Below, in pieces: positions 12,232 through 26,690 of a DNA stretch of 47,715 bases. A program made the translations under genes and the position numbers. Every line of letters begins with the position of its first letter. Position 1 is the first letter of the stretch. Source of the DNA: a virus; IMG/VR virus record IMGVR_UViG_3300022890_000034, positions 1-47,715 of that record. One strand, 5' to 3'. The notes beneath the pieces are model-generated. The model had not been told where the DNA came from and made no database searches. It saw nothing but the letters and a program-made list of their open reading frames with translations.

Positions 12232-13479
12232 ATGGCTGGTTTTGAAGGTTTAATGGGTTCGTTTGATGAAGCTATGAGAAATCCTGCTATACTCAATGTT
12301 ATGGCTACTCTAGCTCAAGGGGTTAGTCCAAAGGGAACTGCAGGTCAAGCATTAGGTGCGTTAAGTAGTCAAATGATTAGGACTAAGAGTAAAGCTAATT
12401 TGCTGCAGAAACTACTTGGTGGTGGAGATGAAGAAGGTGGATTAGGTTTAACAGGTGAAGATGTTCTGCAGATGCCTGAGTCTATGGGCGGCGGTTTTAT
12501 GTCTGGTAATGCGCCTAGTAGTCTATCTGGAAAGGGAAAACTTACCATGAGTGAAGATGGTAAGATTAACATTTCTGGAGATGAAAATTATATTAGAAAC
12601 ATATCAGGAATTGGTGGAAGGCAAGGTGGTGGACAGATCACACCTCAAATGTCTTCTCAAGCACCTATTCAAAATCCTACAAGTCAACCTAACAACTCAG
12701 CGCAGGCAAAGTATGCAAACCCTTTCGCGTCCAGTCAGCCTAGTTTGACAACTGCTGACCTGGCTGGACTAACTTCTGAAGATATAAATCAAGCAGTTAC
12801 GTTAATGTTGGGTAATAGAGAACTTGGAAGAAAGACTACATCTGATATCTATGATGCTACTTATAAAATGGGGATGTTAGGGACGCAACAGAAAGATGCG
12901 GAGACTAAACGACTTACTGAACAAAGAGCTAGCGCGCCATTCATAGGTGGGTATAATAAATCTGAGTTTAAATCTTTACCATCAGATGAACAAGAGTATA
13001 CTGTGTATAAGTCATCTGAAGAAAGTCAAAGTAGATCTCCTGTGTCTAGGCGGGAATTCAAGATGATGGAGCCTACGGTTAAGGAAAAATTTCTAAGATC
13101 TGCATTGAAAGATCCTGCGCTTAAAGGTATTGCAAAGGAACTGGCTCAGGCTGGAGTTACTCCACTTAAGGATAAAGTTGCTGAGAAAGGTGCATTTGCA
13201 GATGTTAAGTCTAAGAAGTACTTTACTAGTCCAAATGGCCTCAGTAAAGATGTTAATAAGTATATGAGTAGTGAGGAAGTTGGTAATAAGAAATTCATGC
13301 TTGGAGGTGATGAGGATAAAATATCTAAATTTATTGACTCAGAAAAGTCTTCCTTCATAGCAGACAAAATAACCTCTGGTGGTGGAGAAATAGTTGGTAG
13401 GAGAAAGGAAGGGTCTACTAGAATTTGGGATGTGAAATGGTCTGATGGAACTACCAGTGAGGTACGTTATGGCTTCTGA
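12232..13479 (+). CDS. Internal virion protein (second)
   Basis: 415 residues from ATG 12232, which has GAGGTG seven bases upstream; a GTG nine bases earlier is less likely. The N-terminus (FEGLMGSFDEAMRNPAILNVMATLAQG) is a helical motif often seen at the start of podovirus internal proteins. A low-complexity Q/S/N/P-rich middle (residues 125-175) and a charged helical C-terminus follow. Its stop overlaps the next start, so it is made with the giant protein at 13469. A structural or ejection role is inferred from position. Confidence 0.6.
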   Translation: MAGFEGLMGSFDEAMRNPAILNVMATLAQGVSPKGTAGQALGALSSQMIRTKSKANLLQKLLGGGDEEGGLGLTGEDVLQMPESMGGGFMSGNAPSSLSGKGKLTMSEDGKINISGDENYIRNISGIGGRQGGGQITPQMSSQAPIQNPTSQPNNSAQAKYANPFASSQPSLTTADLAGLTSEDINQAVTLMLGNRELGRKTTSDIYDATYKMGMLGTQQKDAETKRLTEQRASAPFIGGYNKSEFKSLPSDEQEYTVYKSSEESQSRSPVSRREFKMMEPTVKEKFLRSALKDPALKGIAKELAQAGVTPLKDKVAEKGAFADVKSKKYFTSPNGLSKDVNKYMSSEEVGNKKFMLGGDEDKISKFIDSEKSSFIADKITSGGGEIVGRRKEGSTRIWDVKWSDGTTSEVRYGF

Positions 13480-16400
13480 AGAATCACTATGGAATAACTT
13501 ATCGTCAGATGATGAAGAGTCTAATTGGACTAATCCAAGTAAGTCATTGGCTAGTGAGGAATCTAACTGGGATAGCATAGGTAATGAAAATAAAGTTAAT
13601 GCTAAAGATCCTTTAAAATACTCTTTCGAACCATCTGATAAATCAGAACCTTACCTGCAAAGTACTTCCGCTGCAGAGAAAAAGTATGGCTTGCCGGAAA
13701 ATTTACTTAACCAGTTAATTAATACTGAGAGTGAATTTAATCCAGATGCGCTGAACCCAAGTGGTGCAACTGGCATTGCACAGATAGTTCCTAAGTGGCA
13801 TCCTAAGGTTGATGCTACTGATCCGAACGCGTCCATAGATTACGCAGCTAGTTTACTTAAGAAGCACCATGATAAGTTTGGAGATTGGGATAGTGCACTA
13901 GCTGCTTATAATGCAGGGCCTAATAGGGTTAGTAAGGGAATGGATAAGTTGCCAGAGGAAACTAAGAATTACCTGGCAAAGATAAATGCCTTTAGAGTTA
14001 AGGAAGCTGAGAAGGCTAAGGTTGGGGAAGTTCCAGTAATTGAAGATCTTGAAACCCCTAAGTTTGAAGAGGCTGGTAAAGGAACTATCCAGGGCAAGTT
14101 AATGACTGAGCAATTAGCTCCTTCCGTTCAGGAGTTTGATACACTTAAAGCTAATCCTATTTTGGCAGAAAACTTTGTGGGTGAGGTTACAGAGACTTTA
14201 CAAGGCTATGCTAATCTTGCAACACAGCCTATGGAGGTTATTAGAGGTGGTGCGGAGTTTGCATTGAGTTTGCCAGGATTTGGTCTTGGGGTGATAGGTG
14301 CTACTCAGAAGATAATGGAGAGGATGGGAAGGCCTTTTACATTTAATGACTTGTATGATTCTGCTAGTGAAGGTATGGAAAACTTGCAGACTTACTGGGG
14401 CGAGAAGATGGTTGAGCCTTTGCTTGGCAAGCCGTCTGCGGTGAGTCAGTTAGTTGGGCAAACAGCTATGGCACCGGCTATAGGCATCTCAATGGTAGCT
14501 GGGAATTTATCTAATGCATTTAGAGACAACCCTAATGTACAAGGATTGATTAAGTTCTTAGGTGACATAGGTGGGTTGGTTGCACTGAGTAGAATCTATC
14601 ATGGTAGCAAAGCAGAGGTAACTGCTAAGGCTGAAGAGATTGTTGAGAGAGCAAAGGTTATAGCTAATAAAGAAAGTTTGTTAGACAAGACCTTTGATGA
14701 AGCTATTAAAGCTGCGCAGGTAGAAGTGATTAAGACAGAGAAGAATCAACTTGAGTTGGAAGCGAAGGAGTTGCAGAAGAATTTAGATTATGAGAAGATG
14801 ATTAAGAATGATCTGAGTTCGAAGACTAAGAAAATTAAACAGATTAAACAAAAGCAAGGTGAGATTCTTGACGTTCAGGTTAATAAAGCACTTGAGAAAT
14901 TACCTGATGGGAAAGACCGTTCAAAAATTAAACGGACTGAGGAAGTTAAAGTTGAGGAAGTAGTTGATGAACCGGCTACTGATCTTGACTTGGATACAAG
15001 TATAGTCAGAGAACCTATAGAATTCTCTACCCAAAGATCTCCATTCCGAGAACATGACGCGGAAGCAACTAATGCAATGCATAAGGTTTATGGAGAGCGT
15101 GAGAAAGGTGTGGCTAATGATCCAGAACTATTCACAGGCAAACTAATCAATGATGTTAATAGATACTTAAATGGAGAAGAAGTTCCTATTGAACAGGTTA
15201 GGGAAGGACTTAGTAGCTTGTCGATGAGGGCTGAAGAGATTAAGGATATGTTTGTGGAAGACCCAACGTATCCTATGAACTTTATCAACTGGCAGGAGAT
15301 GGTAGGTGAGGCGGCCAAGTGGGCAAGGAAAGCAGAGAGAGTTGAAGTAGATCCATTTGCTGGTATAGATCTTAAGCCAGCCCCTAAGGTAAAGGCTGAA
15401 CCATTTGCTCCAGACATTTGGCAGGTTGAGCAACTACAACAAACATTAAATGCTATCAAAGCTGTAGGTGATCCTATGGCTAGTCTTATACAGAACTTTG
15501 GTAGGGACTTAGGATCTAGGCTATACGATTCAATTAGTGATATACTTGGTAAGGAAGGGGACTTCCCTAAAGGTAATAGAGCTGAGGAAGTATTTGCAAA
15601 TGCAGATCGTAAAATTGTTGAACGGACTGGTGAACCAAGTGTTAGACTTAATACTATGATTCCACTGGACGAAGTTCCTAGACAAGTTAGAAAAGCTTTA
15701 GGTGGTGCAAAGAAATTATTTGACTCAGTTGCAACTGGTGATATTTATAGGAATAAAAAACTATGGAATAAGACTGGTTACTGGCTTGATAAGGATGGAA
15801 ACTTCCGTTATGAGATTCCTAACTACATAGATATCTATAATAAGAAAAATAAAACTAGGTTCAACTGGCTTAGGTTACGAGATGAAGGGCCGCAGAAACT
15901 TCCTGATGTGCTGAAGAATGATGAGCTGTATAAAGCAGTTCCTAAGTTAAAAGATGTAACAGTTATAGTTAATGAAGACCTAGCTTCTCAAGGTATGTAT
16001 AGTAAAACAACCAACTCAATAATGATGCGTCTTGCACCTGACTTTGAAACCTTAGTACATGAAATCCAACATGCAGTTGAGTCAAAGGCTAATACAAAGT
16101 TCCAAGGCACTAACATAACCATGCAAGAAGTAAAGAAGATGTCTCAGTTTACTAATGAACTAATAGCAACTGCTAAGAGTCCTGAAGTAAAAAGAATGGC
16201 TAGGGTGTTTAGGGAAGACTATCTGCGCAATGCAACTAATCCAGACGCTGTGCCTATGTATACAATGAGTGATCTTTACAGGGAAGCTAAGAAAAGTCCT
16301 GATGACTATTGGAAGCTGCAGGAATTAGATAAGAGGATTTTCTCAGAAGACCCATTTGAATCTTATCAAAAAGATCCAGGCGAAGCATTGGCTAGGTTGG

Positions 16401-19400
16401 AGACTGAACGTAGTAACATGAGTGATCAGGCTAGGAAGAAAGAGGCGCCTTGGGAGACGTTGGATAAGATGTTAGAAGGTGAAGGGATTGAACCTTCAGG
16501 TGTGGAGCTTTACTCCGGCATACCAGTCGGCAAGGCTATTGATTTATTGAAAGACACAGTTAAGAAATTTAAAGGTAGAATAATCAAAACTGTAAACAAA
16601 GATCAAAGTCAGATAATAAAAGACATAGCTAAGCTGCACACGGAAGGTAAGTTCGACGCTGACATTACGTTTAGCAAAGGTGTAATGTGGAGAGGGACTG
16701 GAATTGAACCAGGGTTAAAGTTTGACAAGAGGATTGAAAAAGAAGGAGTTACTAAAGCTGATGTAGGGAAGAAGATTCCACTGGATGATAAGTCAATTAA
16801 TTCTATAATGTTTGATCCGCCGTTTTTAGTTGAAGCCACTAAACCAGGTAAAGAACGAACTGGGATAATGGCTAAGAGATTCACCGCGTTTAGGACTGTA
16901 GATGAGATGTGGTCTTTTTACAAAGACACTATTAATGAATCTTTTAGAGTCCTTAAGCCTGGTGGGAAGTTGGTAACCAAGACACAGGATATTACTTATG
17001 GTAATAGAATGTGGGCGTCCTCTTCAGAGATTTACAACTTTGCAACCCAGGCAGGATTTAAACCAGTTGATAGGTTTATACTTGAGAAAGAGCACGGCAT
17101 GCCACTTCCGCCGAATGTGAAGGTTCAGAAGCATGCTAGGAAAAGTCATAGTGACTTCTGGGTATTTGAGAAACCAAAGAAAAGTTATACTTATCCAGAA
17201 CAAGGTGGAGTTAAGTTACTTGACATCACATCAGTTCCTGCTGAAGGTGCTAAAGCATTAGTGGCTGGTGCGAAGAAGTTAAGTGATTATACTAAACGTG
17301 CAAGGGGAATGAAAGCCTTCAGACCAGCGCAGGCAGCTAGGATGTTAAGGGAAGAATTTAACAGATCCTTTATTGATAGGTCTGGGAATATTAGAAATAA
17401 GTTACTTGATAAACTAGGAGATGATGGTTATAGCATAGTACAAAAAATGTACTTGTCTAAAGGTGCTTCGTCATTAGCTGCTAATAACTTAAAGCAAATG
17501 AGTAAGGAAGTTTATTCAGGACTAAGCAAGGATGGAAGAAGGATTTTAGATAATTTAATCTTAGCAGACCGCATGATAGACATTGGAAAGTATAAGACTG
17601 CTAAGCAATTTAAGTTTCCTGAAGGTCTTGAGCCGACTAACTCAGCGGCGTATAATGAGTTGTTTCAATTCATTGAGAAGATAGACGCTAAGACCGCGGC
17701 TGACCTAAAGCAAAGAGCGGGCGCGTACTTCGAGTGGATGAAGAAGCCACTTAAGGATTTGCTAGACAATGGATTGATTAGTGAAGAAGAGTTTAACAAC
17801 TTAATTGCACATAATTATAGGCAGATTAAACTCGTGGACGTATTTGATAAAAGGTATCAAGCGAAGGTTGGGAAGAAGAAAAGGACAGTCTATGATTCAG
17901 GTATTGAGTCACTTGCAAGAGGGCGGCAAACAGATGTGTTTGAACCTTCTAGTGAGATTATGGCACTTGAGGTTTTCAATAGATCTTATGGAAGAATATT
18001 AAACAACAAAGCTAATCAATCATTGCTTGAGCTTGCTAAGAGTCAACCTGAGAATGAATTTGTTAGAATTAAGGAAAAGAAAGGTGATAAGATTCCTAGT
18101 GGGTGGGATAGAACTTTTGTATATGAAAATGGTGAGCGGAAGTCTATGTACTTATCGCCGGAGATGTCTAAGGAATGGATAACTAGCAACCCAGAGATGA
18201 GTTATAAAGCAAGTCAGATGTTAAGGTATGCTAGTCTTTCTCCAGTACTTAGGACATTTGCTACTGGAATTAACTGGGGATTTGCACTAGCGAATTTACC
18301 TAGGGACATTCAACATGTTTGGTTTACTGCTAGAGCATTTAAAGATGGTAAATGGGAACCTATTTACAATCCTAACATGCCAGTGTTTGCTGCACAGATG
18401 GGAAGGGACATGGCTAGTGTGTTTACAGATGCTGTAACACGAAAAGGTAGGTATGAAGAATATATTAAAGACGGCGGAGGGATGGAGTTCTTAGTTCATC
18501 AAGGTAGACTGTTGCAAAGAGGAAGGCACGTTGAAGGTGGGATTGATAAAGTCTATGATTGGCTAGGTTACTTTGGTGAAACTAGTGAGATAATGACTAG
18601 GCTTGCGATTAGAGAACGGGCAATTAGGAAAGGGAAGAGTAAGCAGGAAGCTACGTTTATTGCTAGGGATTACATGGACTTTGGGCAGGGTGGAGGGATT
18701 GCAAAGGCTGCTGATAACGCGTTTCCTTACTTGAATGCGGCTATACAGGGAACTAGAGGATTGTTAAGGTCTTTCAAACCAGGCAGTGGAAGTGCATTGA
18801 GTTCGTCTTATAAATTAGCACAGTACGCTGCACTTACTTCTGGCCTGTATATAGCCATGACCAAGATGCATCCGGAGACTACTAAGGCACTTAAAGGCAG
18901 CATAGACATGCAAAATAATCAGTGTCTTCCATTAGGTGATGACTTTGGATTTGAAGACTCAAGAGGTCAGATGAGATATCCTTATTTGAAAATCCCTATT
19001 GACCCAGGACAGAAATTTTTTAAAACATTCTTTGAAGCAAGTACAGATAAATGGTTAGGTAATGAGGTAGATGTTAATAGGGTAGTAGATTCGTTGAAGG
19101 AGTTAAGTCCTGCTAGCGTCAGTGAACTACCGCCGACCATTAGTGGAGTACTTGGATATGTTACTAATAAGGATTTCTGGTTGAACGAAGACATCTGGAG
19201 GAAAACTGACAAAGCATTTGATTACCCAAGAAGTAAGGAAGAGTACATTCCTGGAAAAACGCCGCAAGCTTATATAGACTTCGGTGCAACCACTGGACTT
19301 TCTCCAGAACGAACCAAGTTTGCAGTTGAAGAATTAGTTACAAATGGAACTGTGTGGAGTTACTTGCTTGGTCAAGGCTACGATGCAATGTTTGGTGATC

Positions 19401-19894
19401 TGCCGAAGGATAAGAAAGAAATGCACTTAGCTGAAACGTTAAGTAAATTACCAGTGATTAAAAGGTTCTTTGGTTTGACTAATCCTTATTCGCAGTTTGC
19501 AACTGGCATTAACGAGGCTAAGGAAAAGAGCGAGGTTGATAGATGGATTCAGAACAGAGGCCTTGACATGAGGGTTGAAGGTTATTTAGTTAATAAGAAT
19601 GTTAGTCGGAAGGAAGTAGTTGATTACATAGCTGGGTTTAAGGATAAGAAAGTATTTGATAGACTTAAGGACAGGTTTGAATTTCAGCAGAAGATTAAGG
19701 ATTTGCCTAATCGTTCTTTCTGGCTGCGAATGAAGAGTTTGAATGTAGAAGCCAGGGCAGAAGTTTATAAGAAAAGACTTGACAATGCAAGTGAAGAAGA
19801 ACGCAGTCAGCTAATGAATGAGTTGCAGAAAGTAATCGCTATCGGTGGAGTTGTTACTAAGGGATTTAGAGAAGAAGTTAGTAAGCTACAATAG
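13469..19894 (+). CDS. Giant polyvalent internal virion protein: lytic transglycosylase + zincin-like + DNA methyltransferase + LPD38-like
   Basis: 2,141 residues from ATG 13469, chosen for its GAGGT site and overlap with the previous stop. Residues 70-160 are a lytic transglycosylase domain: catalytic Glu about 87 in TES, GIAQI near 102 and AYNAGPN near 148. Residues 780-880 resemble polyvalent-protein domain LPD23 (TGYWLDKDGNFRYEI) and end in HEIQH (864-868), a zincin-type motif. About residues 1060-1225 read as a DNA methyltransferase: FSKGVMWRG, INSIMFDPPF (1112-1119), VLKPGGKLV and QKHARKSHSDFWVFEK. The C-terminal 800 residues resemble LPD38. It is probably ejected into the host to breach peptidoglycan and act on DNA. 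Two copies of the 25-bp palindrome lie inside the gene. Confidence 0.85.
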   Translation: MASEESLWNNLSSDDEESNWTNPSKSLASEESNWDSIGNENKVNAKDPLKYSFEPSDKSEPYLQSTSAAEKKYGLPENLLNQLINTESEFNPDALNPSGATGIAQIVPKWHPKVDATDPNASIDYAASLLKKHHDKFGDWDSALAAYNAGPNRVSKGMDKLPEETKNYLAKINAFRVKEAEKAKVGEVPVIEDLETPKFEEAGKGTIQGKLMTEQLAPSVQEFDTLKANPILAENFVGEVTETLQGYANLATQPMEVIRGGAEFALSLPGFGLGVIGATQKIMERMGRPFTFNDLYDSASEGMENLQTYWGEKMVEPLLGKPSAVSQLVGQTAMAPAIGISMVAGNLSNAFRDNPNVQGLIKFLGDIGGLVALSRIYHGSKAEVTAKAEEIVERAKVIANKESLLDKTFDEAIKAAQVEVIKTEKNQLELEAKELQKNLDYEKMIKNDLSSKTKKIKQIKQKQGEILDVQVNKALEKLPDGKDRSKIKRTEEVKVEEVVDEPATDLDLDTSIVREPIEFSTQRSPFREHDAEATNAMHKVYGEREKGVANDPELFTGKLINDVNRYLNGEEVPIEQVREGLSSLSMRAEEIKDMFVEDPTYPMNFINWQEMVGEAAKWARKAERVEVDPFAGIDLKPAPKVKAEPFAPDIWQVEQLQQTLNAIKAVGDPMASLIQNFGRDLGSRLYDSISDILGKEGDFPKGNRAEEVFANADRKIVERTGEPSVRLNTMIPLDEVPRQVRKALGGAKKLFDSVATGDIYRNKKLWNKTGYWLDKDGNFRYEIPNYIDIYNKKNKTRFNWLRLRDEGPQKLPDVLKNDELYKAVPKLKDVTVIVNEDLASQGMYSKTTNSIMMRLAPDFETLVHEIQHAVESKANTKFQGTNITMQEVKKMSQFTNELIATAKSPEVKRMARVFREDYLRNATNPDAVPMYTMSDLYREAKKSPDDYWKLQELDKRIFSEDPFESYQKDPGEALARLETERSNMSDQARKKEAPWETLDKMLEGEGIEPSGVELYSGIPVGKAIDLLKDTVKKFKGRIIKTVNKDQSQIIKDIAKLHTEGKFDADITFSKGVMWRGTGIEPGLKFDKRIEKEGVTKADVGKKIPLDDKSINSIMFDPPFLVEATKPGKERTGIMAKRFTAFRTVDEMWSFYKDTINESFRVLKPGGKLVTKTQDITYGNRMWASSSEIYNFATQAGFKPVDRFILEKEHGMPLPPNVKVQKHARKSHSDFWVFEKPKKSYTYPEQGGVKLLDITSVPAEGAKALVAGAKKLSDYTKRARGMKAFRPAQAARMLREEFNRSFIDRSGNIRNKLLDKLGDDGYSIVQKMYLSKGASSLAANNLKQMSKEVYSGLSKDGRRILDNLILADRMIDIGKYKTAKQFKFPEGLEPTNSAAYNELFQFIEKIDAKTAADLKQRAGAYFEWMKKPLKDLLDNGLISEEEFNNLIAHNYRQIKLVDVFDKRYQAKVGKKKRTVYDSGIESLARGRQTDVFEPSSEIMALEVFNRSYGRILNNKANQSLLELAKSQPENEFVRIKEKKGDKIPSGWDRTFVYENGERKSMYLSPEMSKEWITSNPEMSYKASQMLRYASLSPVLRTFATGINWGFALANLPRDIQHVWFTARAFKDGKWEPIYNPNMPVFAAQMGRDMASVFTDAVTRKGRYEEYIKDGGGMEFLVHQGRLLQRGRHVEGGIDKVYDWLGYFGETSEIMTRLAIRERAIRKGKSKQEATFIARDYMDFGQGGGIAKAADNAFPYLNAAIQGTRGLLRSFKPGSGSALSSSYKLAQYAALTSGLYIAMTKMHPETTKALKGSIDMQNNQCLPLGDDFGFEDSRGQMRYPYLKIPIDPGQKFFKTFFEASTDKWLGNEVDVNRVVDSLKELSPASVSELPPTISGVLGYVTNKDFWLNEDIWRKTDKAFDYPRSKEEYIPGKTPQAYIDFGATTGLSPERTKFAVEELVTNGTVWSYLLGQGYDAMFGDLPKDKKEMHLAETLSKLPVIKRFFGLTNPYSQFATGINEAKEKSEVDRWIQNRGLDMRVEGYLVNKNVSRKEVVDYIAGFKDKKVFDRLKDRFEFQQKIKDLPNRSFWLRMKSLNVEARAEVYKKRLDNASEEERSQLMNELQKVIAIGGVVTKGFREEVSKLQ
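14914..14938. repeat. 25-bp palindrome family, copy 5 (intragenic)
   Basis: Half sites AGACCGTT and AACGGACT are both close to consensus with correct 9-base spacing. It lies in the frame that reads KDRSKIKRT in the giant virion protein. As it is far from any start codon it shows the family is not strictly leader-bound. Confidence 0.75.
15604..15628. repeat. 25-bp palindrome family, copy 6 (intragenic, weaker)
   Basis: Half sites are AGATCGTA and AACGGACT; the spacer (AAATTGTTG) is less A/T-pure. It encodes ADRKIVERT, similar to the peptide under copy 5, so protein-level similarity rather than a DNA site could explain it. Confidence 0.45.
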
Positions 19895-24414: not shown

Positions 24415-24439
24415 AGTCCGTTTAATTTTAAAACAAACT
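24415..24439. repeat. 25-bp palindrome family, copy 8
   Basis: On the plus strand the half sites are AGTCCGTT and AACAAACT. It fills the gap between the methyltransferase fusion stop and the polymerase start, ending 10 bases before the polymerase ATG in the direction of transcription. Confidence 0.85.
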
Positions 24440-25775
24440 ATTTAACCGCATTAGCTTTGACAAGGAATGAGTCACGGTTGCTCTTTGATAAGTCAAAGCC
24501 AATAGGTGCCATGCCTAGTGCACTAGCAGCGAAAATGCCAACGCCTGAACCAAGAAAAGGAATAAATACACGAGAGCCAGGAAAAGCAAAGGTTTCATAG
24601 ATGTCTCTCATTAACTCGATTGGCCGTTCAGTTGGGTGAGTCTTTTGTTGTGCAGGGACGGGAGGGAAGTTGAATACGTTAGTTGAGCGCGCCTTAGCTA
24701 TGGCAGGCCGTCCTTTCCATGCGTAGAAGAACATTTCGTAAGAGTTAGGCAAGTGCATTTCTGGACGCTTAGATTGACCTGAAGGCTTAGTCCACACAGG
24801 ACACATGCGAGTTGTTTCAAACCCAGCACTTAGGATTGACTTGTAAATTTCTGCAAACCAAGGCTCAGGTGCAAACCAACAGATTAGCCAAGAGTGATTA
24901 GCCATAACGCGGTAGCATTCTTTGAATACAGTATTCATTCCTTTCCATAGTCCATCAGGACCGCCGTTCATGTAGTGTTCGATTTCTATCTCATTGTACT
25001 CGCCTAGAGTGTATTGAGATTCTCCGTCTGTCTTCTTTGCATTGCGTAGGTCGATTGCATAGGGTGGGTCTATCTCAACCAAGTGTATTATGTTGTCAGG
25101 GATTTTCTTAACGCCTTCGAAGAAACTATTAACAACGTAGCATTTGGAGAGTTCGTGAAGTTTAGTGTTGGAAGTTTGAGATTCTAGCTTTTGCGCGATT
25201 GCTCCCTTGACCATTACTTCATTTACTTTCTTAAGAATCTTAGTTGCATCTGACGCGGTCTTGCAGTTTTCAAATAGCTCAGGAAATGTCTCACGTGCTT
25301 CCGCGCGTTTGATAGATTGAGAAATTGCAGCCTTTGAAATTCCACCTAACATCTCACCAGTGTCTGCGCTTCCCCAGCCAACTCCATCAGGTCCAGGTGC
25401 TTTGACTCCATGAAGTTCTTGTTGCATCTGATGGATTTCTAAAGTTAGCTTGTCAAATTCGTAGAATTCCATATCTTTGCGATGAAAGTTCTCAGCCTTC
25501 TCAATCATCTTCATTTCCAGCTCGGATAAGTCGCGGTCGTAGATGCGGCCAGGAATTAAAGTTACTTTGTTTTGGTTTAGGACTGTGAATCTACGTTCGC
25601 CAGCAAGGAGTAAGTACTTTCCATTTTCTAGAGATTTAAATGTTAAAGGAGTTGTTAGCCCAGACTCTTTCATTGAAATTTCTAGGCCTTCTAAGTCGCC
25701 CATCACTTCACGGGCGCGGTCTGAAATAGTTATTGATTCAATAGGAACCATCTCCACACGACCTACGTCAATCAT
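24438..25775 (-). CDS. ParB-like domain / DNA methyltransferase fusion
   Basis: 445 residues from ATG 25775, placed eight bases after GGAGG; a TTG 15 bases earlier is the only alternative. Residues 5-95 are a ParB/Srx nuclease-like domain with LAGERR near 63-68. Residues 95-190 are a helical DNA-binding linker (GISKAAISQSIKRAEAR looks like a helix-turn-helix). Residues 215-440 are a beta-order N6-adenine/N4-cytosine methyltransferase: IDPPYAID (about 236-243), GLWKGMNTVFKECYRVM, THPTERPIELMRDI and FIPFLGSGVGIFAA. It probably modifies phage DNA at a sequence chosen by the N-terminal part. No restriction partner is visible, so protection or regulation is likelier than restriction. Confidence 0.85.
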   Translation of the reverse strand: MIDVGRVEMVPIESITISDRAREVMGDLEGLEISMKESGLTTPLTFKSLENGKYLLLAGERRFTVLNQNKVTLIPGRIYDRDLSELEMKMIEKAENFHRKDMEFYEFDKLTLEIHQMQQELHGVKAPGPDGVGWGSADTGEMLGGISKAAISQSIKRAEARETFPELFENCKTASDATKILKKVNEVMVKGAIAQKLESQTSNTKLHELSKCYVVNSFFEGVKKIPDNIIHLVEIDPPYAIDLRNAKKTDGESQYTLGEYNEIEIEHYMNGGPDGLWKGMNTVFKECYRVMANHSWLICWFAPEPWFAEIYKSILSAGFETTRMCPVWTKPSGQSKRPEMHLPNSYEMFFYAWKGRPAIAKARSTNVFNFPPVPAQQKTHPTERPIELMRDIYETFAFPGSRVFIPFLGSGVGIFAASALGMAPIGFDLSKSNRDSFLVKANAVK

Positions 25776-25779
25776 TAGT

Positions 25780-25995
25780 TTATCCTCCAAGGGTTTTTAA
25801 CAGATCAGCAATTTGCTCTGCAGTCATAGTTGTTGGGTCTACGTTTGTTACTTTCTTTTGCGTAACCTTTCGTGTGGTTTTAGTTTTGCGCAAAGGTACT
25901 CTGCGACTTAGACGAATCTGGCGGAGGACTTCTAAGGCTTCGTCAGTTGACAGGTCAGAGATTGAGTCATAGTTTAAGGATTCTAAGTCAGACAT
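25780..25995 (-). CDS. Small basic protein, unknown function
   Basis: 71 residues: an acidic helix (SISDLSTDEALEVLRQIRLSRR), a strongly basic linker (LRKTKTTRKVTQKK) and a C-terminal helix motif (MTAEQIADLLKTLGG). Similar ends (DPTTMTAEQ and a leucine-rich tail) occur in two other small proteins of this phage (33869 and 32758). A GGAGTAAGC site precedes ATG 25995. The basic linker suggests nucleic acid contact. Confidence 0.6.
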   Translation of the reverse strand: MSDLESLNYDSISDLSTDEALEVLRQIRLSRRVPLRKTKTTRKVTQKKVTNVDPTTMTAEQIADLLKTLGG

Positions 25996-25999
25996 TAGC

Positions 26000-26254
26000 T
26001 TACTCCTTTAGTTTTTCTGCAGCTAATTCAGCTTGCTTTAATGAAGGTAAGATTTCGCGAGGTTTAAGTGTTCCAGACATAATGATTCCTATTGCAATTC
26101 CTCCGTGATCTTGGACTAGGTCAAGAACGTCGTCTAGGATTTTGGTAAACAAAGCCTTGCGCATGCCGTAGTTTTCAAGCAACCTATCAGCGCGTTCTTT
26201 TTGATCATAGGTTATTTCAAATGAGAACCTTGGCTTGTAGTCAGTATTAGACAT
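26000..26254 (-). CDS. Small helical protein, possible DNA-binding
   Basis: 84 residues. The N-terminus (FSFEITYDQKERADRLLENYGMRKALFTKILDDVLDL region, residues 10-46) has strand-helix-helix order like ribbon-helix-helix or ribosome-associated adaptors. A glycine/isoleucine segment (GGIAIGIIMSGTL) and a helix follow. Short proteins with this pattern are common in phage replication operons, but no function is known to me. Its start overlaps the deaminase stop by eight bases. Confidence 0.6.
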   Translation of the reverse strand: MSNTDYKPRFSFEITYDQKERADRLLENYGMRKALFTKILDDVLDLVQDHGGIAIGIIMSGTLKPREILPSLKQAELAAEKLKE

Positions 26255-26690
26255 TGGAAAACTCCCTTATTGAAATGTTAGAATTTTCTATTAGGAATAA
26301 AGAAAGTTCATCATAGGCTAAAGTTTGTTGAACAACTATCTCAATGATCCCTGCGTTGATTAAGGTACCGAAGCATTTGCTGCAGGGGATTACAGAGTTC
26401 ATGTAAAGGGTTGAGTTGAGGACTGATACACCTAAACGTGCTGCGTTGGAGACTGCGTTTTCCTCTGCATGTTGAGCTGGACAAAGTTCCATGTGAGTTC
26501 CTGAGGAATAGCCTAGAACTTGCCTAGGACATTTGTCTTTACAATGAGGAATGCCGCGAGGAGGGCCGTTGTAACCAGTTGAGATTATTGAGTGGTCGCG
26601 GACTAAGATTGCACCTATCTGACGTGATAGGCAAGAAGACTTGGTTGATACAGAGCAGCAGATGTCGAGGAAGTAAGAATCCCAGGTCAT
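26247..26690 (-). CDS. dCMP deaminase
   Basis: 147 residues. It has the cytidine/dCMP deaminase zinc site HAEEN (His about 86, catalytic Glu about 88) and PCSKC (about 113-117). The dCMP-specific substrate region STGYNGPPRG is at about 37-46, and a cysteine cluster follows (HCKDKCPRQ). It converts dCMP to dUMP for thymidine nucleotide supply. No thymidylate synthase is seen in this genome, so the host enzyme presumably follows. Its product pool makes uracil misincorporation likelier, which fits the glycosylase fused to the polymerase. The AAGGAGA site and one-base contact with the upstream gene place it in the replication operon. Confidence 0.9.
   Translation of the reverse strand: MTWDSYFLDICCSVSTKSSCLSRQIGAILVRDHSIISTGYNGPPRGIPHCKDKCPRQVLGYSSGTHMELCPAQHAEENAVSNAARLGVSVLNSTLYMNSVIPCSKCFGTLINAGIIEIVVQQTLAYDELSLFLIENSNISIREFSNV

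Follow-up and report, generated by a model that had tools for sequence, protein, structure and literature searches.

A DNA methyltransferase domain within a putative ejection protein of the polyvalent class in a podovirus-type phage

Introduction

Polyvalent proteins have been described previously, and the zincins that they contain are likely to act as their processors (Iyer et al., 2017, PMC5512222). That work counts LPD38 and lysozyme among the phage-type domains, and most of the methyltransferases (MTases) of these proteins fall into a single EcoKI/TaqI-like adenine family joined to SF2 helicases, of which DarB is the archetype (PMC5512222). DarB is a component of the virion head and guards phage P1 DNA in cis against type I restriction (PMC5512222). 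A review of ejection proteins treats domain swapping of the peptidoglycan hydrolase and leaves methyltransferases unmentioned (PMC8954989). A literature search of partial coverage returned no paper joining 'internal virion protein' with 'DNA methyltransferase domain', which is weak evidence of novelty, and we found no proteomics for the protein family studied here.

In this work we analysed a contig of a bacterial virus, 47,715 bases long and taken from an environmental sequence collection (the window, which covers the whole record), in which one very long gene joins an N-terminal transglycosylase to an MTase domain. We give a probability of about 60% to the reading that this protein leaves the virion together with the genome and that its MTase protects phage DNA, on entry or soon after copying, from restriction by the host.

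Results

The gene lies at 13469..19894 on the plus strand, the strand of all features of the protein given below, and its translation runs uninterrupted over 2,141 amino acids (AA), as an earlier note on this DNA had read it. The ATG at 13469 has a GAGG upstream at suitable spacing, and a second in-frame ATG is present 24 nt further upstream. The SLT lytic transglycosylase domain (AA 67–160, 13667..13948) matches Pfam PF01464 above cut-off (E=3e-21), with the catalytic Glu87 at the position that the note had given, and in a PHROGs scan the same region matches phrog_342, internal virion protein with endolysin domain (E=3e-23).

The next module (AA 740–1005, 15686..16483) joins LPD23 to a zincin-like metallopeptidase and is supported by an 11-sequence alignment and the LPD23 matches of homologues. 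In the protein itself LPD23 scores 17.6 bits at AA 763–784, below the Pfam cut-off, while at the corresponding position of seven homologues LPD23 (PF18838) exceeds 27 bits. The LPD23-like segment of the earlier note has its support in the homologues, and its HEIQH sequence is present at AA 864–868, but LPD23 precedes this motif and does not end in it: HEIQH sits in a separate zincin-like domain. In the alignment both HE-Q-H and a downstream PGE are invariant, the combination of HEXXH and a conserved Glu that marks zincin-like metallopeptidases (polyvalent MPTase, M78-like), and the Glu of PGE, E972, is probably the third zinc ligand. Profile–profile comparison relates the domain to L014, a single-module protein that matches Peptidase_M78 and DUF6782 above cut-off. 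The zincin model (pLDDT 75, pTM 0.52) has no PDB match below E=0.35, PprI/IrrE and jannalysin being among the weak matches; the closest zincin found is that of the homologue L229 (62% identical).

The C-terminal core (AA 1306–2141, 17384..19891) is conserved. Searching twice with core alignments, and once among genome contigs, we collected 87 distinct homologous ORFs, some of which end at a contig edge before the region of interest here and are uninformative on it. The LPD38-like C-terminus proposed in the earlier note finds its support in homologues and not in a direct match. Pfam finds no match to LPD38 (PF18857) in the 2,141-AA ORF, but the homologue in a Desulfofustis phage scores 24.2 bits, just below the cut-off of 27, and in profile–profile comparison the core is related to a protein with a strong LPD38 match with a probability of 97%. 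Among contigs of metagenome-assembled genomes, core homologues occur in three only (Syntrophaceae, Parcubacteria, Aminicenantes), at about 32% identity, which is too distant to name a host. In one homologue, L165 (6984-10510), the ORF is split into pieces of 400 and 788 AA, although its core and the L163 core are nearly identical. Taken together, the SLT domain, LPD23 (via homologues), the zincin-like domain, the MTase and the LPD38-related core support the polyvalent architecture that the earlier note had proposed, with profile, alignment and fold evidence behind it.

The MTase domain (AA about 1037–1245, 16577..17203) is recognized by phrog_24333, 'DNA methyltransferase', at AA 1037–1241 (E=3e-43, PHROGs scan) and by Pfam N6_N4_Mtase at AA 1110–1243 (E=2e-6, 28.4 bits, the cut-off being 26.7). 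The domain is whole, since the phrog_24333 match spans positions 31–232 of the 238 in the profile; the limits of about 1060–1225 given previously were too narrow. Its motif residues are D1065, G1071, D1086, DPPF (1116–1119), KTQD (1171–1174) and QKHARK (1220–1225). In a 65-sequence alignment it keeps all 17 invariant columns of the family, DPPF, D1065, D1086 and QxHxR among them, with an overall identity to the family of about 40% (36–45% to stand-alone phrog_24333 proteins). It departs from the family at five positions (F1073M, P1089I, C1172T, H1185S and Y1229D), each of which shows 99% conservation among 68 relatives and is rarely altered in any other member, more mildly at R1210G and a few conservative positions, and its terminal branch is long (0.87, for a median of 0.23). 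The alteration of several near-invariant residues means that the activity or the target of this MTase may differ from those of its relatives. The five changes occurring together, and the long branch, could also be expected of a dead or reduced domain, a former MTase retained as a DNA- or SAM-binding module or as a spacer. We consider this quite unlikely, given that all 17 invariant residues persist at such a low overall identity and that the domain is full-length and confidently modelled.

The AlphaFold2 model of the domain (pLDDT 84, pTM 0.83), obtained as the earlier note had suggested, points to a class I MTase with a Rossmann fold. In Foldseek it matches class I MTases with DNA methylases on top, the first being TTHA0409 (E=8e-8), at TM-scores of only about 0.4–0.5; other DNA MTases matched are rotifer N4CMT, CcrM and PvuII. 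The match supports the fold and says nothing on target or activity. A sequence search of solved structures gave no close template for the MTase, the zincin or the core. Bud23, Trm11 and nucleomethylin are also among the class I fold matches, which leaves some room for a different substrate in place of phage DNA, such as RNA, the DNA of the host, or a host or phage protein. We regard such a substrate as improbable, because both the DPPF motif and the families matched are typical of N6/N4 DNA MTases, and an unlike domain found at the same place in a homologue (L113, see below) is also an N6/N4 DNA MTase.

In viral contigs and phage records, 88 matches to the MTase were scanned; all lie in open frames of 195–286 AA, and none in a frame above 320 AA. 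The profile scan kept the best 80 of the 221 relatives that it found, so rarer fusions among more distant members are possible. Nine phage records match the domain; one of them, that of Pseudoalteromonas phage H103, carries a detailed annotation, and there the MTase is a gene of its own, gp51. phrog_24333 is a small phage MTase family whose retrieved relatives are stand-alone genes, the window protein being the only fusion found. No phrog_24333 domain occurs in any of the 87 core homologues or in the DNA examined around them.

The fusion, junctions included, is seen in one record only, and no match to its MTase elsewhere exceeds about 45% identity, two facts that speak for an assembly artefact. 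An artefact is nevertheless scarcely credible: the reading frame is open throughout, linkers of the family type stand at both ends of the domain, the GC and GC3 of the MTase segment resemble those of the rest of the gene, and the site is also filled in relatives. By the same composition, the segment does not stand out as a recent acquisition, and that proposal was rejected. Ile1038 of the domain, encoded by ATA, aligns with the start Met of stand-alone members.

The site occupied by the MTase could be compared with the same site in close relatives. The homologue L112 has the same set of SLT, LPD23 and zincin and a core about 70% identical to that of the window protein, but in it a short LYSGIP linker joins the zincin to the core with no insert. 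The slot of L229 is likewise empty, and homologues without cargo have a single LYSGIP linker ahead of the C-terminal part. Set beside these two empty sites, the window MTase is a precise insertion. In L113 the slot holds a different N6/N4 MTase (841-1575; DIFGGTGKIGL, SPTYGNR; Pfam 2e-8), alignable to the window MTase family over only 85 columns, and an exact peptide-pattern scan of viral contigs found no relatives of it. In L114 the slot holds an ART-PolyVal domain (Pfam, 4e-12); in L098 it holds an ART-like segment, called from the appearance of the sequence, with no Pfam match. In L236 (7874-9391) a cargo of about 480 AA is bracketed by two nearly identical linkers, copies of GxKLYSNIPID, whose 60-nt stretches are 62% identical in DNA; its start looks ART-like by eye, and Pfam gave no match in the cargo stretch scanned.

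A third MTase stands before the core in the distant homologue L204, a DarB-like methylase (LEPSAGIGHF, GNVPFG; Eco57I below cut-off) accompanied by helicase and RadC matches above cut-off. This very long ORF (L204, 3-8003, 3,537 AA) has matches to a DarB-like methylase, an SNF2 helicase and RadC besides the C-terminal core. Another (L249, 2-7800, 3,614 AA) has matches to a DarB-like methylase and an SNF2 helicase, along with LPD23 and a DUF6782-like peptidase. Two other candidates were rejected: NVPF in L144 and L231 is surrounded by sequence that is not that of an MTase, and in Maribacter phage Panino (L010, 6334-11823), annotated as 'tRNA methyltransferase', Pfam finds no methyltransferase. 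The three MTase-bearing proteins (window, L113 and L204) lie apart on a quick maximum-likelihood tree of 85 cores, made with a short search without bootstrap and without a formal change-count test, and separate recruitment of the three MTases is the simplest reading of this tree.

A case of exchange comes from two sister phages, L114 and L116, whose DNAs are 92.7–96.5% identical along the aligned stretches flanking the cargo. The cargo itself does not align, about 700 nt in L114 (9139-9841) standing against 355 nt in L116 (9487-9841). The former encodes an ADP-ribosyltransferase and the latter is of another sequence; this pair is a direct view of cassette replacement. The site between zincin and core has the look of a slot for interchangeable cargo, an arrangement already known in its broad lines.

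A copy of the LYSGIP-type linker often stands on either side of the cargo. Such paired copies are significant relative to shuffles (p=0.001) in L113, L115, L098, L116 and L236, and the duplication is weak by the same measure in L108 and L114. In the window protein the first linker is LYSGIP (AA 1014–1019, 16508..16525), and the second is VKLLDITSVPAEGAK (AA 1248–1262, 17210..17254), which resembles the single linker of L229, IELFDITQIPTEAAK. Taken alone, this pair has no significance against shuffles (p=0.74), and the case for it rests on comparison with the relatives, the first copy being the family LYSGIP and the second resembling the L229 linker. DNA direct repeats at the linkers are only 38–70% identical and give no indication of a recent exact duplication. 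The idea that LYSGIP is a cleavage site of the zincin gains no support from co-occurrence, as the linker is present in L103, L106, L110, L114 and L116, in which no zincin was detected.

Upstream of the gene lie several late genes in a row and the gene of a major head protein, and downstream are the convergent primase and polymerase; a terminase and an SU10-type portal are at the opposite end of the record. Desulfofustis phage MD01 has a comparable gene order. The homologue gp120 of phi46:3 is called 'virion structural protein' in RefSeq, in a record that states no evidence. The label 'podovirus' is drawn from these resemblances. The designation 'internal virion protein' in the earlier note agrees with the SLT domain, the gp120 label and the place of the gene, where the structural cluster ends, which are indirect indications; presence in the virion itself we infer from them, and the protein is probably packaged and injected with the DNA. 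No tRNA or Rfam RNA was found in the 47,715-nt window, and scans of it for promoters and terminators returned no more than shuffled sequences.

The phage has a second MTase gene, at 24438-25790 on the minus strand, which encodes a ParB-like N-terminal domain and an N6/N4 MTase with DPPY. The syntenic gene of the Desulfofustis phage, annotated as ParB-like, contains ParB and MTase families matching this gene. A dCMP deaminase-like gene lies nearby (26247-26690, minus strand). Over 1-47715, with both strands counted, several palindromes show a nominal deficit relative to a Markov model (TACGTA 2 for 17 expected, CAGCTG 8 for 30, CCGG 58 for 100). The ParB-MTase could perform ordinary DNA modification, and its presence bears on a further explanation, that the fused MTase works in the producing cell, where it would be made late and methylate progeny DNA before or during packaging, its placement in an ejected protein being incidental. 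The location of the gene within the structural cluster is compatible with this, and in its stand-alone form the MTase is encoded by ordinary genes of phages, so that the activity needs no injection. We judge this explanation unlikely, since for such a role a free gene would do, the phage already has the separate ParB-MTase, and the slot of relatives carries ADP-ribosyltransferase-like domains, which fit an action on a new host.

Discussion

We favour the reading in which the MTase acts on phage DNA in the newly infected cell. A podovirus-type ejection protein of the polyvalent class would be packaged and leave the capsid together with the DNA; the SLT domain would open the peptidoglycan, the core would anchor or guide transfer, and the cargo domain would act inside the cell, where an MTase cargo would methylate the phage DNA as it enters, or the first copies made from it, and shield it from host restriction. 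The zincin may cleave the protein to free the cargo, as has been proposed for polyvalent proteins, and the effectors would be exchanged between phages as cassettes near the repeated linker. The example of P1 DarB makes it plausible that incoming DNA is protected before the host can restrict it. The strongest indirect support is that three MTases of different kinds have been recruited to the same core, which favours a selected DNA-methylating role and strengthens the case. Against this reading count the five changed positions, the long branch, the lack of the helicase usual in polyvalent MTases, the separate ParB-MTase and the occurrence of the fusion in a single record. A more elaborate proposal, in which the site is a dedicated cargo dock where LYSGIP-flanked cassettes recombine between phages and the neighbouring zincin frees MTases, ADP-ribosyltransferases and other first-strike enzymes, is possible but on balance doubtful.

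What this locus offers is a helicase-free DNA methyltransferase carried in a podovirus-type ejection protein, together with a natural series at one site: empty, occupied by another MTase, or occupied by an ART. With this series one can test directly whether phage DNA is protected on entry by methyltransferases injected along with it, and whether ejection proteins have a modular cargo site; a modular cargo site in ejection proteins, if present, could explain rapid change in early counter-defence.

Compared with described systems, the protein resembles polyvalent proteins in uniting a lysozyme/transglycosylase, a zincin-like peptidase, LPD domains as read through homologues and a DNA-modifying enzyme in one polypeptide, but its MTase differs in type from the predominant EcoKI/TaqI-like adenine MTases and comes without an SF2 helicase. 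The likeness to DarB of phage P1 that we propose is that of a virion-carried methyltransferase protecting incoming DNA. DarB joins a gamma-class NPP(Y/F) MTase to a SWI2/SNF2 ATPase, whereas here a DPPF MTase stands alone inside a transglycosylase–zincin ejection protein; the DarB-type dyad is absent, the motif being DPPF and not NPP(Y/F), and Pfam and PHROGs scans of the 2,141-AA protein giving no helicase match. From the stand-alone phage MTases of phrog_24333, such as H103 gp51, the domain differs in being fused and in having an ATA codon where its relatives start with Met, while it shares with them the full-length domain and all invariant residues. With ejection proteins of the T7 gp16 type the protein shares an N-terminal transglycosylase on a large late virion protein, but phrog_342 aligns only at AA 58–221, and neither a zincin nor an MTase is described for gp16. 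The comparable protein of Desulfofustis phage LS06-2018-MD01, WBK39753, has a homologous C-terminal core and lies in a similar order of structural genes, homologue and convergent primase/polymerase; unlike the window protein, it is 1,577 AA long and is without a Pfam SLT, zincin or MTase match.
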